Source: Candidatus Melainabacteria bacterium GWF2_37_15 (GTDB lineage Bacteria; Cyanobacteriota; Vampirovibrionia; Gastranaerophilales; UBA9971). From it: a DNA stretch of 56,249 nt. The stretch covers positions 9,276-65,524 of the forward strand of contig MFRL01000010.1 in the NCBI GenBank assembly GCA_001784565.1. Reading direction: 5' to 3'. The notes below the pieces were generated by a model that saw only the letters and a list, made by a program, of their open reading frames with translations, did not search any database and was not told the DNA's origin. Positions 31,046 to 38,147 of this stretch are shown piece by piece (position 1 is the stretch's first letter; every line of letters starts with the position of its first letter). Made by a program: the position numbers and the translations under genes.

Positions 31046-32644
31046 TTAATTTAATATAAACTTATTTTGCGGGGTCTCTTTATATAGAAGTAATCCATAT
31101 TCCAGACTATCTACTATGGCAAGATATGTAGCTTCAATGATGTTTCTGCTTACACCAACCGTGTCCCATCTCTCAAATCCATCTGTTGTTTCTACATGAA
31201 CACGAGTTTTTGCGCCTGTTCCATCAGTCCCGTCCAAAATTCTTACTTTAAAGTCAGATAACTTAAACTTTTCCATTGTCGGATAAAATGGTTTAAGTGC
31301 AAGTCTTAAAGCTCTATCTACGGCATGCCCCGGTCCTTCGCCTTCTGACACTGTATGTAAAATTTCATTTCCTACTTTTATTTTTACTGAAGCTTCTGTA
31401 TTAAGATAACCCGTACCTCTAGTATCGGTCAGCACAGTAAAGCCTTTAAGTTCAAAATATTTTGGCTTAATATTTAAAACATCTTTAAGCATAAGCTCGA
31501 AGGAAGCGTCAGCGTTCTCAAATGTAAAGCCTTGCCACTCAAGGTTTTTAATTCTTTCAAGGATTTTTCTTATATCATCATTGGTAAGGTCGATCCCCAG
31601 ATTCATTCTGGAAATTTTTTCTTTTATAGAAGCCAGTCCTGACTGGTCGCTTATAAGTATTCTTCTCTCATTGCCTACTGTTTCAGGATTTATATGCTCA
31701 TAAGTGCTTGACTGCTTCATAACTCCGCTGGCATGAACACCTGCTTTATGAGTAAAAGCGCTGCTCCCTGTGTATGGGGCAAAATTATTTGACTTTTTGT
31801 TGGCAATCTCGCTTATTTGTCTTGAAACCGCAACAATCTTTGTTAAATTTTCGCCTAAAACGTTAATCCCCAATTTTAGTTGCAGCGCAGGAATTATTGA
31901 ACATAGGTTAGCATTTCCGCATCTTTCGCCATAGCCGTTAAACGTTCCCTGAACTTGATTTGCGCCTGCCTGGACAGCTATTATGGTATTAGCCACAGCC
32001 ATATCGCCGTCATTATGGGCATGTATGCCTAATACTGCATCTGGTAAATGTTTCGCTACTATTTCTGTTATTTCTTTAATTTCAGAGGAAAGACATCCGC
32101 CGTTTGTATCACATAGGATAATCCTTTCTGCTCCTGCTTGATGAGCAGCAGAAAGTGCTTTTAAAGCGTAATCAGGGTTCTTTTTATACCCGTCGTAAAA
32201 ATGTTCAGCGTCAAAGAATACTCTTTTACCGCAATTTTTCAGGTATGTAATGCTATCAGCAATCATACTGAGGTTTTCTTCAAGAGTAGTGCATAGTGCA
32301 TGCTCCACATGAAAGTCCCAGGTTTTACCGAATATGGTAATAATTTCTGTACCTGCCTGCAGCAGTTCGCTAAGCACTTTGTCATCTTCTGCTTTGCCGT
32401 TGGCTTTTCGGGTACAGCCAAAAGCTGTTATTTTCGCATGTTTTAATTCCAGACTTTTTGCCTGTTCAAACACTTCAATATCTTTGGGGTTTGCACCCGG
32501 CCAGCCGGCTTCGATATAGTCTACGCCAAGGTTATCAAGCAGTTTAATTATTTTAAGCTTATCATTGGCTGAAAAGTTTATGCCTTCTGCCTGCGCCCCG
32601 TCACGGAGAGTTGTGTCATATATTTCGATTTTATGTGTGGTCAT
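31046..32644 (-). CDS. cimA: Citramalate synthase
   Basis: A 532-residue HMGL-type enzyme condensing pyruvate with acetyl-CoA to (R)-citramalate, the first step of threonine-independent isoleucine synthesis. Catalytic region YDTTLRDGAQAEGINFS at residues 8-24, the IFGKTWDFHVEHAL segment near 105, GIHAHNDGDMAVAN and the C-terminal regulatory LeuA dimer domain (about 400-525) are present; length and the KTWDFHV motif match CimA more than LeuA. Its GAAGGG ribosome site lies in the end of the upstream 40-aa gene, and ilvN is farther upstream in the same direction, so it closes the branched-chain operon. Confidence 0.9.
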   Translation of the reverse strand: MTTHKIEIYDTTLRDGAQAEGINFSANDKLKIIKLLDNLGVDYIEAGWPGANPKDIEVFEQAKSLELKHAKITAFGCTRKANGKAEDDKVLSELLQAGTEIITIFGKTWDFHVEHALCTTLEENLSMIADSITYLKNCGKRVFFDAEHFYDGYKKNPDYALKALSAAHQAGAERIILCDTNGGCLSSEIKEITEIVAKHLPDAVLGIHAHNDGDMAVANTIIAVQAGANQVQGTFNGYGERCGNANLCSIIPALQLKLGINVLGENLTKIVAVSRQISEIANKKSNNFAPYTGSSAFTHKAGVHASGVMKQSSTYEHINPETVGNERRILISDQSGLASIKEKISRMNLGIDLTNDDIRKILERIKNLEWQGFTFENADASFELMLKDVLNIKPKYFELKGFTVLTDTRGTGYLNTEASVKIKVGNEILHTVSEGEGPGHAVDRALRLALKPFYPTMEKFKLSDFKVRILDGTDGTGAKTRVHVETTDGFERWDTVGVSRNIIEATYLAIVDSLEYGLLLYKETPQNKFILN

Positions 32645-32886: not shown

Positions 32887-33405
32887 TTACCCTGCAACGG
32901 AAACCGAGTTGTAATTATTTACATTAAACTGCATTTCCCTTGATATGGCTACCTTGCCGGAACGCACAAGCTCACGGATCCCCAGCGGCCTCAACAATTC
33001 TATTAATGACTTTATTTTCGTATCATCACCCATTGCTTCAATAGTGTATGTCTTGACTGATACATCAACTATCTTCGCGTCAAATATTTCCGCAATACGC
33101 AGGATTTCCGAGCGAGCCTCATCTTTTGCATTGACTTTGATAAGGATTAATTCCCTCTCAATACTGTTCTCGCCGGTTATATCCACAACTTTTAGGGTAT
33201 TTACCAGCCGGTTGAGCTGTTTGCATATTTGTTCTATCACTCCATCGTCGCCTGTCGTTACGATAGTAACCCTTGAAAAGGCCTGATCCTGTGTGGGTGC
33301 AACAGTAAGACTCTCTATGTTGAATCCTCTGCCGCTGAACAGTCCGGCTATTCTGCTGAGTACGCCTGCTTCGTTTTGTACAAGAACTGATAATGTATGT
33401 TTCAT
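32887..33405 (-). CDS. ilvN: Acetolactate synthase small (regulatory) subunit
   Basis: A 172-residue regulatory subunit that binds IlvB and mediates valine feedback. The N-terminal ACT domain is HTLSVLVQNEAGVLSRIAG then LFSGRGFNIESLTVAPTQD (residues 3-40), with RELILIKVNAK and the second domain (FDAKIVDVSVKTYTIEAMG). The start ATG overlaps the stop of hepT as TAATG (33403-33407), so the small subunit is translated in continuity with the toxin-antitoxin genes. The symbol ilvH is equally used for this family. Confidence 0.95.
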   Translation of the reverse strand: MKHTLSVLVQNEAGVLSRIAGLFSGRGFNIESLTVAPTQDQAFSRVTIVTTGDDGVIEQICKQLNRLVNTLKVVDITGENSIERELILIKVNAKDEARSEILRIAEIFDAKIVDVSVKTYTIEAMGDDTKIKSLIELLRPLGIRELVRSGKVAISREMQFNVNNYNSVSVAG

Positions 33406-33770
33406 TATTGTTTTTCCTTTTCGTATAATTTTTTAAGTATTTCTTCTAAAGGTTTAACTAAAAGGGCAACATCTTTTTTGCCTGCGCCCCAAAGTGTCGT
33501 TAGATCAACTCTTTCATAACAATGAATAATAATGTTTCTCATTCCGATAATATTTCGCCATGGAATTTCAGGATATTTTTCTTGGATTTCTTTAGGTATT
33601 TTGTTTGCAGCTTCACCCAGGATTTCAAAAAGTCTTTCTATTGCTCGATATCTTAACATATCATCTTTAAAATCGTTAAAAGTTATATTATTTATTACTG
33701 CTTGAATATCCATACAAGCTTGAAGCATATCCTCAAAAGAGTCTATGTAATTTTTTTCAAACATAAACAA
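33405..33770 (-). CDS. hepT: HepT-type HEPN ribonuclease toxin
   Basis: A 121-residue HEPN-domain protein (DUF86). The catalytic R-x4-H with its following tyrosine is GMRNIIIHCYERVDL, Arg78 to His83 and Tyr85; the preceding LGEAANKIPKEIQEKYPEIPWRNI is typical of HepT. HepT is an RNase toxin inactivated by AMPylation of the tyrosine by MntA. It overlaps mntA by 14 bases upstream and ends TAATG into ilvN. Confidence 0.9.
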   Translation of the reverse strand: MFMFEKNYIDSFEDMLQACMDIQAVINNITFNDFKDDMLRYRAIERLFEILGEAANKIPKEIQEKYPEIPWRNIIGMRNIIIHCYERVDLTTLWGAGKKDVALLVKPLEEILKKLYEKEKQ

Positions 33771-34050
33771 CCTCAGATAAAATATGTTTCCCGGTGCGTT
33801 TTTTTAAAGAATTTTTCATAATAATATCAACTTTTTTACCAAAAATTTCAGAAAGCATATATTGTAGCCCACCTAGAGTAAAAAGGCTGGTGTCGGGTTT
33901 GTAATTAACTAAAATGTCAATATCACTATCAGGTTTTTGCTCATTACGAATATATGAGCCAAATAAGCCTATTTCCGTTACATTATAATCTTTTTCAAGA
34001 AGGGGCTTTAATTCTTTTAATTTATCTAAAATTTCATCTTTAGAATTCAT
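33757..34050 (-). CDS. mntA: MntA-type nucleotidyltransferase antitoxin
   Basis: A 97-residue minimal nucleotidyltransferase. The signature GSYIRNEQKPDSDIDILV (G31-S32 and Asp43, Asp45) matches the GS-x10-D-x-D motif of MNT antitoxins, which AMPylate HepT. It starts TAATG at the ilvB stop (34048-34052) and overlaps hepT by 14 bases. The gene pair therefore is embedded, not appended, within the ilv operon. The pair could be functional or a domesticated remnant; both catalytic motifs are intact. Confidence 0.9.
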   Translation of the reverse strand: MNSKDEILDKLKELKPLLEKDYNVTEIGLFGSYIRNEQKPDSDIDILVNYKPDTSLFTLGGLQYMLSEIFGKKVDIIMKNSLKKRTGKHILSEVVYV

Positions 34051-35798
34051 TACGAATATTCTCCCTGTATCTCTTCACAACCCTCTTTGCCCATAAGTAC
34101 GTTGCATATAGGCTCACCAGCCAGCACCCACGGGAACACCGCTTCCATGGAATCAACTATAAAATCAACAAATACAGGCCCGTCGGTCTCAAGCGCCCGA
34201 TTTACAGCAGCTTCAATTTCTTCTTCTTTGGTTACCCTGATACCTGTAGCTCCATAGGCTTCCGCGAGTTTTACATAATCCGGGCTTTCTATGTGGGTAT
34301 GCGAATAATGCTTGTCAAACAGCCTTTCCTGCCACTGCCGCACCATTCCAAGGTAGCCGTTATTTATAATAAATACCTTAACACCGATATTATTCTGCAT
34401 GCAGGTGCCTAATTCCTGGATATTCATTTGGATACTTCCATCACCCGCAATGTTTATAACAGGTTTATCAGGGCATGCAACTTTTGCGCCCACAGCAGCA
34501 GGGAAACCAAACCCCATAGTGCCTAGGCCGCCGGATGTTACGAACCTTCTTGGCTTGTCGAACTTGTATATAAGTCCTGTCCACATCTGGTGCTGGCCTA
34601 CTTCTGTGCATATTATCGCATCTTTATCTTTTGTGAGTTCGTAAATCCTTTCAATTACGGTTTGAGGGTTCATTTTCTCAGTTTTTACTGGCGATTTTAC
34701 TCTTTTTTGTTTCCATATATTTATCTGGTGTAGCCATTCAGCTTTTTTATCTGCTTTTTTCTGTATTTCTTCAGTGTTTATAATATTAAGCATATCAGCA
34801 ATGACCCGCTTCGCATCACCAACTATAGGTATATCAACAGGAACATTTTTACTGATTGAGCATGGGTCAATATCTATATGAATAACTTTAGCGTCAGCGC
34901 AGAATTTGCTTAATTTTCCTGTTACTCTGTCGCTGAAACGCGCGCCTACGGCTAACAGAACATCACAGTTTGCGGTCGCCAGGTTTGCCCAGTAGTTTCC
35001 GTGCATCCCTACAAGCCCAAGAGAAAGCTCATCAGTCCCCGGGTATCCACCAGTGCCCATAAGGGTATTTGCAACCGGTATATTAAGCGCTTTTGCAAGT
35101 TTTATAAGTTCTTCTGATGCGTCTGCCGCGATAACTCCGCCTCCGCACATTATTAATGGCCTTTCTGCCTTGCAAAGGAGGTTTAAAGCTTTTGCTACCT
35201 GGAGCGGATGGCCGTTATAGTTTGGGTTATATCCGGGAAGTTTAACTTTTTCAGGATATATAAACTCCGCTTTATTGGTTAAAATATCTTTTGGCATGTC
35301 AACTACTACAGGCCCGGGTTTTCCTGTCATGGCAATATGAAAAGCCTCTTTAATAACTCTTGGCAGGTCTTTTGTGTCTTTTACAAGATAGTTATGTTTA
35401 CAGCATGGCATTGTTATACCAACAACATCCGCTTCCTGGAAAGCATCGCCTCCTATGAGCGTAGATGCTACCTGGCCTGTAAAAACCACCAGAGGATAAC
35501 CGTCATAATAAGCATTTGCAAGTCCGGTAATTGTGTTACATGCGCCCGGTCCTGAAGTAACTAACGCTACGCCGGGTCTGCCTGTTACTCTTGTATATCC
35601 CTCTGCGGCATGGATTGCGCCCTGTTCATGCCTTACCAGATAATGCTTTATTTCTTCGCATTTATATAGTTCATCATAAATATGCAGTATTACGCCGCCC
35701 GGGTAGCCAAATAGTACATCAACACCCTCAGCTTTTAGGCATTCAATAAAAATTTGGGCCCCTGTAAGCGTTTTGATCTCAGTTTTTACTTTTGTCAT
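34050..35798 (-). CDS. ilvB: Acetolactate synthase large (catalytic) subunit
   Basis: A 582-residue ThDP-dependent enzyme. The catalytic glutamate is in LVRHEQGAIHAAEGYTRVTG near residue 57, followed by VTSGPGACNTITGLANAY; the FAD-dependent middle domain is about 200-340; the ThDP-Mg site is INIAGDGSIQMNIQELGT followed by NNGYLGMVRQWQ. It forms acetolactate or acetohydroxybutyrate for valine, leucine and isoleucine. First gene of the operon ilvB-mntA-hepT-ilvN-(small ORF)-cimA; upstream is the 317-base space that also serves the divergent RHH gene. Confidence 0.96.
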   Translation of the reverse strand: MTKVKTEIKTLTGAQIFIECLKAEGVDVLFGYPGGVILHIYDELYKCEEIKHYLVRHEQGAIHAAEGYTRVTGRPGVALVTSGPGACNTITGLANAYYDGYPLVVFTGQVASTLIGGDAFQEADVVGITMPCCKHNYLVKDTKDLPRVIKEAFHIAMTGKPGPVVVDMPKDILTNKAEFIYPEKVKLPGYNPNYNGHPLQVAKALNLLCKAERPLIMCGGGVIAADASEELIKLAKALNIPVANTLMGTGGYPGTDELSLGLVGMHGNYWANLATANCDVLLAVGARFSDRVTGKLSKFCADAKVIHIDIDPCSISKNVPVDIPIVGDAKRVIADMLNIINTEEIQKKADKKAEWLHQINIWKQKRVKSPVKTEKMNPQTVIERIYELTKDKDAIICTEVGQHQMWTGLIYKFDKPRRFVTSGGLGTMGFGFPAAVGAKVACPDKPVINIAGDGSIQMNIQELGTCMQNNIGVKVFIINNGYLGMVRQWQERLFDKHYSHTHIESPDYVKLAEAYGATGIRVTKEEEIEAAVNRALETDGPVFVDFIVDSMEAVFPWVLAGEPICNVLMGKEGCEEIQGEYS

Positions 35799-36362: not shown

Positions 36363-38147
36363 TTACTTACCGTCAGGCCGGTTTAAGCATGGTTTAAAGA
36401 TTTCTTTTTCCTTTCCTTCTGCATCAAATTCATAAAACTTCCCTTTTATATATACTTTAGAGAAATCAAGGCCCTTGGTTTTTGAGTCAAAATAAACATC
36501 TCCGCCAATATATTCTAACTTTCCTAAATCTTTTATCCGACTCGTGGAAAAATCAGCATCTTTTCCAATTGTTGTTAATTGCCCTAAACTTTCTATCTGG
36601 CTGTTAGAAAACCATACACTTTTACCAATTTTTGTTAATTGTCCTAAATCTTTTACCTTACTGTCACTAAAATAAGCATATTCGCCAATTGTCTTTAACT
36701 GCCCTAAATTCTCTACCTGACTGTTTGCAAAATAAGCAGTTTTTCCAATTGTTGTTAACTTCCCTAAGTGTTTTATCTGGCTTTCACCAAAATGGGCATC
36801 TAGACCGATTGTTGTTAACTGTCCTAAATTTTTAATCTTACTATGATTAAAATAAACAATTCCCTTAATCGTCTTTAACTGCCCTAAATTCTCTACTTGG
36901 CTGTTAGCAAAATAGGCATCCCCGCCAATTTCTGTTAACTGACCTAAATCTTTTATGGGAATATCTCTAAATTTAACACCTCTATTAATTTTTTTAATAA
37001 TTTTAAACAGGTCATTTTCTTTTATGCCTAAATCTTCGTAAGTAAAGTGTTCATCCGGTTGTATATATGCTGATATTTCAACCTTTCCATCATCAAGTTT
37101 TTTGGTTACCATTCCAAAATGTTCAAAGACCGCTGAATAATCGTTATTCGCAATAAAAGGTTCTAAGTTAATTTTAGCCTTATCAAATCTAATTTTAGCT
37201 TCTTCTGCTTGTTGTATTTCTTTCTCGCCACCCTTAAAGTTATTTTCTTTTATATAGTTTTTCACAACGTCTATATATTGCACTGGGATTTTATTATTAT
37301 TTCTCACATCTTCAAATTCAGATATAGTATCATTTTTAAAACTAATACTTACCTTTGTTTTTCCATTTTCAATATAAAGATGGTCATCACCCTCTTCAAG
37401 ATAAGCTCTCGCATGTCCTTCACCTTTTGTACACCAGGTTTCACAAGATAATGCCTGCATCTTCTTCACATTAGCTTCAAAGTTTTCAGGATCGTTTTTC
37501 TTTGATGGAATCCTCACCCACCCTGTCATTACTCCTGCTTCACTTGATACATCTTGATTTTCTAATCCTGATAATCCCTTCACCAGATTTTGCTTGTATT
37601 TATTGATGAAATTAAAATCCAGTCTTCCTCCTTTTTTTGTTGCATCCCGAAGTTCACCAATCGTATCAGCTAAAGCTCTTTTATCCAGGACTTCCGGTTG
37701 TTTACGATTGTTTGGTTTTAAATCCTTGATTATTGCGGAAAAAATTATACAGCCCAATGCAGGATTATCTTTAGTAAGAATATTTTCTTTTGTAATGTAT
37801 TGTTTCCATTCTTCCAGCTTTTTTATGCGGGCATCGCTGTCTTCTGTATGCTCCGGATCCGGTATTTTATACTGTTCTAAATTAATCAGCCCTTTCAGCT
37901 TTTCTTTTGCAAGATTTTGTATCTCATCAGGTGAATTGTATTGTGATAAAGGTAATTTAGAAAGACTTGCATACGCGTAAATATCTGGAAATTCCTTTAA
38001 TTTATCAGGCGTCAGCCCTTTAAAAGAAACCGTATCATGCGTTAGATTCCTTAACCTTGGTATATTCAAAATTCCAGCTCGCTCTAATGGGGCTGCTTTT
38101 CTCTGCAAAGAATTATTTTGTAGGCTTATAAAATTAATATTTAGCAT
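36363..38147 (-). CDS. Tagged protein with eight 20-residue leucine-rich-like repeats
   Basis: A 594-residue protein in three parts. Residues 1-45 include the tag-like DTVSFKG. The middle (about 50-395) is helical and includes WCTKGEGHARAYLEEGDDHL, a segment seen in uncharacterised repeat proteins. Residues about 415-575 are eight tandem 20-residue units of the form L-G-[QK]-L-x-x-I-G-x-x-A-x-F-x-x-S-x-[IV]-x-[NDHS], for example LGQLTTIGKDADFSTSRIKD. The pattern resembles short leucine-rich repeats like those of effector proteins (20 residues per turn). No signal peptide. An exported binding protein is inferred from tag plus solenoid; I cannot identify a function. Confidence 0.7.
   Translation of the reverse strand: MLNINFISLQNNSLQRKAAPLERAGILNIPRLRNLTHDTVSFKGLTPDKLKEFPDIYAYASLSKLPLSQYNSPDEIQNLAKEKLKGLINLEQYKIPDPEHTEDSDARIKKLEEWKQYITKENILTKDNPALGCIIFSAIIKDLKPNNRKQPEVLDKRALADTIGELRDATKKGGRLDFNFINKYKQNLVKGLSGLENQDVSSEAGVMTGWVRIPSKKNDPENFEANVKKMQALSCETWCTKGEGHARAYLEEGDDHLYIENGKTKVSISFKNDTISEFEDVRNNNKIPVQYIDVVKNYIKENNFKGGEKEIQQAEEAKIRFDKAKINLEPFIANNDYSAVFEHFGMVTKKLDDGKVEISAYIQPDEHFTYEDLGIKENDLFKIIKKINRGVKFRDIPIKDLGQLTEIGGDAYFANSQVENLGQLKTIKGIVYFNHSKIKNLGQLTTIGLDAHFGESQIKHLGKLTTIGKTAYFANSQVENLGQLKTIGEYAYFSDSKVKDLGQLTKIGKSVWFSNSQIESLGQLTTIGKDADFSTSRIKDLGKLEYIGGDVYFDSKTKGLDFSKVYIKGKFYEFDAEGKEKEIFKPCLNRPDGK
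36480..36960 (-). repeat. Tandem 60-bp coding repeats
   Basis: Eight units of 60 bases correspond to the protein repeats. Neighbouring units differ by substitutions but keep CCTAAATTCTCTACCTGACT and TGTTAACTGCCCTAA-like blocks (plus-strand view). The similarity suggests expansion by slipped recombination. Confidence 0.75.

Follow-up and report, generated by a model that had tools for sequence, protein, structure and literature searches.

The locus analysed here raises the question of how a toxin-antitoxin pair came to lie flush between the genes for the two subunits of acetolactate synthase, and whether such a fit indicates long co-adaptation, as an earlier note on this DNA had proposed. The window (the whole stretch analysed, 56,249 nt, from Candidatus Melainabacteria bacterium GWF2_37_15) carries the genes on its minus strand in the order ilvB, mntA, hepT, ilvN. 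The upstream host gene ilvB (34050-35798; acetolactate synthase large subunit) matched TIGR00118 with 817.8 bits (cut-off 538), and the downstream host gene ilvN (32887-33405; regulatory subunit) matched TIGR00119 with 206.2 bits (cut-off 56.9). On the same strand follows cimA (31046-32644; citramalate synthase; TIGR00977, 723.9 bits, cut-off 450), which by synteny is the next gene of the ilvN unit in most relatives within the family. Between the host genes lie mntA (33757-34050), encoding a minimal nucleotidyltransferase antitoxin of 97 aa, and hepT (33405-33764 from ATG; an alternative start, TTG, lies farther upstream at 33770), encoding a HEPN ribonuclease-type toxin of 119 aa. The ORF positions and family matches agree with the placement of the pair between ilvB and ilvN that the note had claimed. 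Both outer junctions are TAATG, as it had also stated: the ilvB stop and mntA start meet at 34048-34052 and the hepT stop and ilvN start at 33403-33407, both on the minus strand, where the end of mntA and the start of hepT also overlap by 8 nt (ATGTTTGA, 33757-33764). Beyond ilvB, a CopG-like gene divergent from it adjoins an ORF of 594 aa (36363-38147) with repeated units such as 'LGQLTTIGKTAYF'.

In a Class I HEPN/MNT module, as defined in the part of the source used here (PMC7641770), a protein of PF01934 or PF08780 that carries RX4HXY is encoded beside a PF01909 protein that carries GSX10DXD. HepT of the window scored 90 bits with PF01934 (cut-off 23.5) and MntA 59.8 bits with PF01909 (cut-off 21). 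The RX4HXY motif of HepT is RNIIIHCY and the GSX10DXD motif of MntA is GSYIRNEQKPDSDID; both are intact, as claimed. G31, S32, D43, D45 and D75 of MntA were invariant across 15 MntA proteins, and mntA precedes hepT with the 8-nt overlap. Scores with the NCBIfam equivalogs NF047751 (HepT_toxin) and NF047752 (MntA_antitoxin) were 38.4 and 46.5 bits, both below the cut-off of 60, which leaves the pair outside these two entries. Judged by its sequence, the pair is a HepT/MntA-type (HEPN/MNT), type VII-like toxin-antitoxin module. It resembles HepT/MntA of Shewanella oneidensis (Class I, type VII), as far as that system is described in the same part of the source (PMC7641770), in its neighbouring small genes with the antitoxin first, its PF01934/PF01909 membership, its RX4HXY and GSX10DXD motifs and a third conserved Asp. 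It differs in scoring below the equivalog cut-offs, in lying flush in a biosynthetic operon and in a biochemistry that is predicted from sequence. In S. oneidensis, the HepT ribonuclease is silenced when MntA attaches AMP to the Tyr in the toxin's RX4HXY motif (PMC7641770, same part); the window pair would likely act by this published mechanism.

The ilvB-ilvN junction was compared across relatives. In a search that included the window's own locus, ilvB ended within 50 nt of ilvN at 20 of 29 ilvN loci, and adjacency of the two genes is therefore ancestral. The description of ilvB and ilvN as 'normally adjacent' thus holds outside the immediate clade but fails in the nearest one. The family tree was ((G000, G002), (g2, g4)), then (g5, g6), where G000 is the window's genome; G000 and G002 were sisters with a support of 100 (four genes) or 98 (RpoB alone). 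The junction is plain in g5 (gaps of 25 and 36 nt) and is 284 nt long in g6. At L015 the computed gap of -498 is an alignment artefact, and this junction was taken by eye. In G008 a stretch of 1.2 kb separates ilvB from the downstream ilvN, and a promoter-like element lies within it. All family genomes are incomplete drafts of many contigs, and the ilvB-mntA junction is known from one assembly.

The element, TTGTAA-N12-TGCGGTAAATT, precedes ilvN in three genomes (G001, G006 and G008); in G002 it stands 42 nt before mntA. With gaps of 10-20 searched, it was exact in 4/10 whole family genomes, at a single place in each and always before the ilvN unit (a second match in G001 was the same place with a longer gap and was counted once), and the backwards control of the pattern matched 0/10. 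The window has no exact element, and its one match with 3 mismatches, far away, is explained by chance; no match with up to 3 mismatches was found in 9 kb around ilvN of G003. A promoter scan gave 22 sites versus 17.8 in shuffles. The shape and place of the element suggest that it is ilvN's own promoter, and its unique occurrence before the ilvN unit in two genera argues that ilvN had this promoter before the pair arrived. At the four loci (L242-L245, from G008, G006, G001 and G002) the element may perhaps be an ilvN-specific operator as well.

G002 was the only relative found to share the position of the pair with the window. Its mntA, 88% identical to that of the window and of common ancestry with it, lies directly before ilvN. 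Between the two genomes mntA had a dN/dS of 0.074 and a dS of ~1.05, similar to the dS of ilvN (1.22). The tree and the common mntA indicate that the insertion predates the split of the window's genus from its nearest sampled genus, that of G002. In G002, however, what follows mntA is a remnant of hepT made up of 24 nt from its beginning and approximately 42 nt from its end, with the part between them deleted. Aligned with the two ends of the window's hepT, this remnant scored 33 (highest of 500 shuffles, 26) and 44 (highest of 500 shuffles, 31), and its frame stops after 13 codons. Dating the loss of hepT by the divergence of the remnant was dropped, the remnant being too short. The junction between remnant and ilvN is TAATAAAAAATG, 7 nt longer than the window's hepT/ilvN junction, and is not TAATG. 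ilvB of G002 lies on another contig, C119, where the gene after it is ShlB-like and convergent; a CopG-like gene stands upstream of ilvB in both genomes. Neither TAATG seam is thus conserved in the sole other carrier found, and the ilvB-mntA seam of the window is probably secondary. The earlier note had named loss of the catalytic residues within the lineage as a result that would refute it; this is the case for HepT in G002, where the gene is lost, but not for MntA.

We also determined how unusual the flush fit is. In ~313 kb of the window's genome, window included, 9 of 178 adjacent same-strand ORF pairs have a 1-nt TAATG/TGATG seam, so a single TAATG seam is ordinary. A fit on both sides is rarer. 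The comparison set was 71 other HepT loci (60 from a phylum search, one per genome, and 11 from the HepT search), of which 28 are flanked on either side by genes of the same direction. One of them, L163, has such genes within 20 nt on both sides; it overlaps each by 4 nt, one being a glutathione S-transferase gene and the other unnamed. One-sided overlap with the next gene recurs at L059 (family 9 glycosyltransferase; a locus of the window's own genome), L056 (HlyD) and L181 (NAD synthase), and the genes after L197 and L205 are also overlapped by their HepT units. The double flush fit of the window is unusual, but other cases exist. At L059 (3848-3855) and L056 (5268-5275) hepT ends in ATGARTAA, and these last 8 nt contain the start codon of the next gene, the glycosyltransferase gene and hlyD, respectively. 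A HigA-like HTH gene (L059, 2854-3141) lies directly upstream of this second mntA-hepT pair of the window's genome.

A second junction, between the type I secretion genes hlyB and hlyD, was found empty, filled and toxin-decayed within one genus. It is empty in G001, where it has its own TAATG seam, and empty without that seam in G007 and G003. In G006 it is filled by a PemK-like gene, mntA and hepT (L056, G006:C40, 4259-5275), and in G008 by mntA and the two ends of an internally deleted hepT (L229, G008:C44, 1501-1880). hlyD of G000 has no hlyB before it. In both the ilv and the hly operon the toxin gene was lost by internal deletion that left the start region of the next gene.

Decay of the pair was then followed across the order. 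Searched with a profile built from 15 MntA proteins, the 241 genomes gave 38 matches, spread over 25 of them. Of these matches 37 were examined (G397:C47 yielded no locus); one, G270:C39, lies at a contig end and was not counted, so that 36 loci remained. Both genes are intact at 26, MntA alone at seven, neither at three and HepT alone at none, in a tally that was seeded from MntA matches and hence favours intact MntA. HepT is deleted, truncated, frameshifted or absent at the seven MntA-only loci (G002:C155, G000:C64, G008:C44, G045:C5, G076:C1, G006:C177 and G002:C200, the last counted although it has no recognisable hepT remnant). The three 'neither' loci are in G085, with catalytic substitutions in both genes, and in G078 and G095, which are broken. 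HepT at G002:C26 and G006:C207 had been taken as broken; this was rejected, since the stops are natural ends, and both were counted intact. From the HepT side, an MntA ORF adjoins 15/15 matches of the HepT search and 71/71 surveyed loci; the MntA motif pattern missed four of the 71, and inspection found an MntA-like ORF at all four. Such one-sided decay is the pattern that a toxin and its antidote would be expected to leave. Orphan antitoxins are reportedly known elsewhere, e.g. in Klebsiella pneumoniae, where the families are of types II and IV by the title of the study (PMC7192599); both cases comprise an antitoxin without its toxin, but the Klebsiella families differ.

Some loci depart from the common pattern. 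At L177, L189 and L191, which are near-identical and belong to one genus, the HepT motif is intact and MntA lacks GSX10DXD (GD...SEVN or SQVN). These loci would represent either neutralisation without adenylylation or a dead pair, and they suggest that AMPylation is not universal for such pairs. At L063 (G085:C40) the His of the HepT motif and a catalytic Asp of MntA are both changed to Tyr, a joint catalytic decay; a close relative in G341 is intact. Elsewhere in the window's genome, L232 (G000:C64, 1501-1797) carries a solitary MntA with a hepT stub of 7 residues; among eight family MntA compared, it is closest to the paired MntA of G002:C117 (86% identity).

The history that we consider probable is that the pair entered between the ilvN promoter and ilvN, that the ilvB-mntA seam arose later by loss of the promoter region, and that HepT/MntA is an addictive or selfish passenger. 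The arrival of this type VII-like module in the ilv region would predate the divergence of the genera of G000 and G002. It most likely inserted downstream of the promoter that ilvN then had and ahead of the ilvN start codon, which would have placed it first in a unit transcribed through ilvN to cimA. Within the window lineage the promoter region would have been lost later, leaving the ilvB stop abutting the mntA start and giving one apparent, presumably co-transcribed ilvB-mntA-hepT-ilvN operon with TAATG seams; such a seam could arise by deletion from an arrangement like that of G008 (ilvB, element, ilvN). The promoter-like element common to other relatives points to the ilvB-mntA seam as the youngest part. 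In the G002 lineage ilvB would have come to lie elsewhere, and an internal deletion would have taken out hepT while leaving mntA and the start region of ilvN in place. Two costs would keep the passenger where it is: cells that lose mntA ahead of hepT would be punished, and deletions extending into ilvN would do harm. Against this history stands the absence of the element in G003: its presence in the ancestor of g1-g4 costs extra losses, and it may instead have been gained independently or by transfer. TAATG at both ends was also considered as a target-site duplication and rejected; the G002 junctions differ, TAATG seams occur natively (the 9/178 pairs above), and TAATG is present at the empty hlyB|hlyD site of G001. 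A phage donor was rejected (1 match in 50,697 phage records, at 29.5% identity; viral contigs gave no relative), as was a plasmid donor (1397 of 72,556 plasmid records matched, all below 60% identity).

The reading of the earlier note was a one-step, seamless insertion between ilvB and ilvN, with coupled translation, long co-adaptation and a dose of the pair that follows the demand for branched-chain amino acids. The exact TAATG at both ends, the single case of a both-side flush fit among the 71 other HepT loci, the ancestral ilvB-ilvN adjacency outside the clade and the age of the pair, which exceeds the g1/g3 split, agree with it. Nevertheless we regard it as unlikely. G002 has neither seam and has lost hepT, and its mntA lies behind the ilvN-type promoter-like element, not behind ilvB. 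Seamlessness as a sign of long co-adaptation was therefore not borne out, and neither was the link to amino acid demand: an Rfam scan of the window was empty, with no RNA leader found, and in G002 the pair does not follow ilvB.

MntA may instead have been domesticated, its lasting value being protection in trans from other HepT copies or from mobile HepT modules, with the window's hepT on its way out like that of G002. Toxin-less MntA loci do recur (7/36), and four HepT matches are kept at other places in G002. Counts of unique changes in toxin-less versus paired MntA (3:3 or 4:1, 6:5, 5:5) show that toxin-less MntA evolves no faster, which may reflect continued use; however, equal rates could also reflect recent toxin losses, the counts are tiny, and the window's hepT is intact. 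We consider this possibility rather improbable. A wider proposal, to which we give little credence, is that operon junctions of these bacteria are regular landing sites of HepT/MntA and that a cycle repeats there: the module inserts at the start of the host gene, a deletion then removes the toxin but leaves both ends of hepT and with them the host start region, and a solitary MntA is kept under constraint by a new role, either trans-protection or the adenylylation of some other protein. That the pair regulates its host operon (HepT might cut ilv mRNA, for example, or MntA might modify one of the two subunits, IlvB or IlvN) is very improbable. Its position, with mntA adjoining ilvN in two genera, would fit; but the same type of pair lies beside unrelated genes (those for HlyD, family 9 glycosyltransferase, NAD synthase and glutathione S-transferase), and hepT is dispensable in G002.

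Insertion of such a module into an amino acid operon is already known. The part of PMC2701414 (2009) used here reports that the lysine biosynthesis operon contains an inserted MNT-HEPN module in Thermus thermophilus HB8 but lacks it in HB27, and that another is inserted in a Deinococcus gene cluster. As in the Thermus case so described, HEPN/MNT of the window lies within an operon for amino acid synthesis, and close relatives differ in whether they carry it. Unlike it, the window concerns another operon and phylum, the insertion predates a genus split, and a stage with a decayed toxin can be recognised, as can the likely history of the promoter; it is by these readable stages that the window appears to stand out. 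Literature searches on ilvB/ilvN with HepT or toxin-antitoxin systems, on such systems in Gastranaerophilales and on toxin-antitoxin genes embedded in a housekeeping operon gave no title that concerned this case. The locus warns that a flush gene junction need not imply long co-adaptation. It offers a natural experiment from which one can read how a chromosomal toxin-antitoxin module comes into a host operon, merges with it and decays there, and the one-sided decay provides evidence from native hosts for HepT as the toxin and MntA as its antidote.
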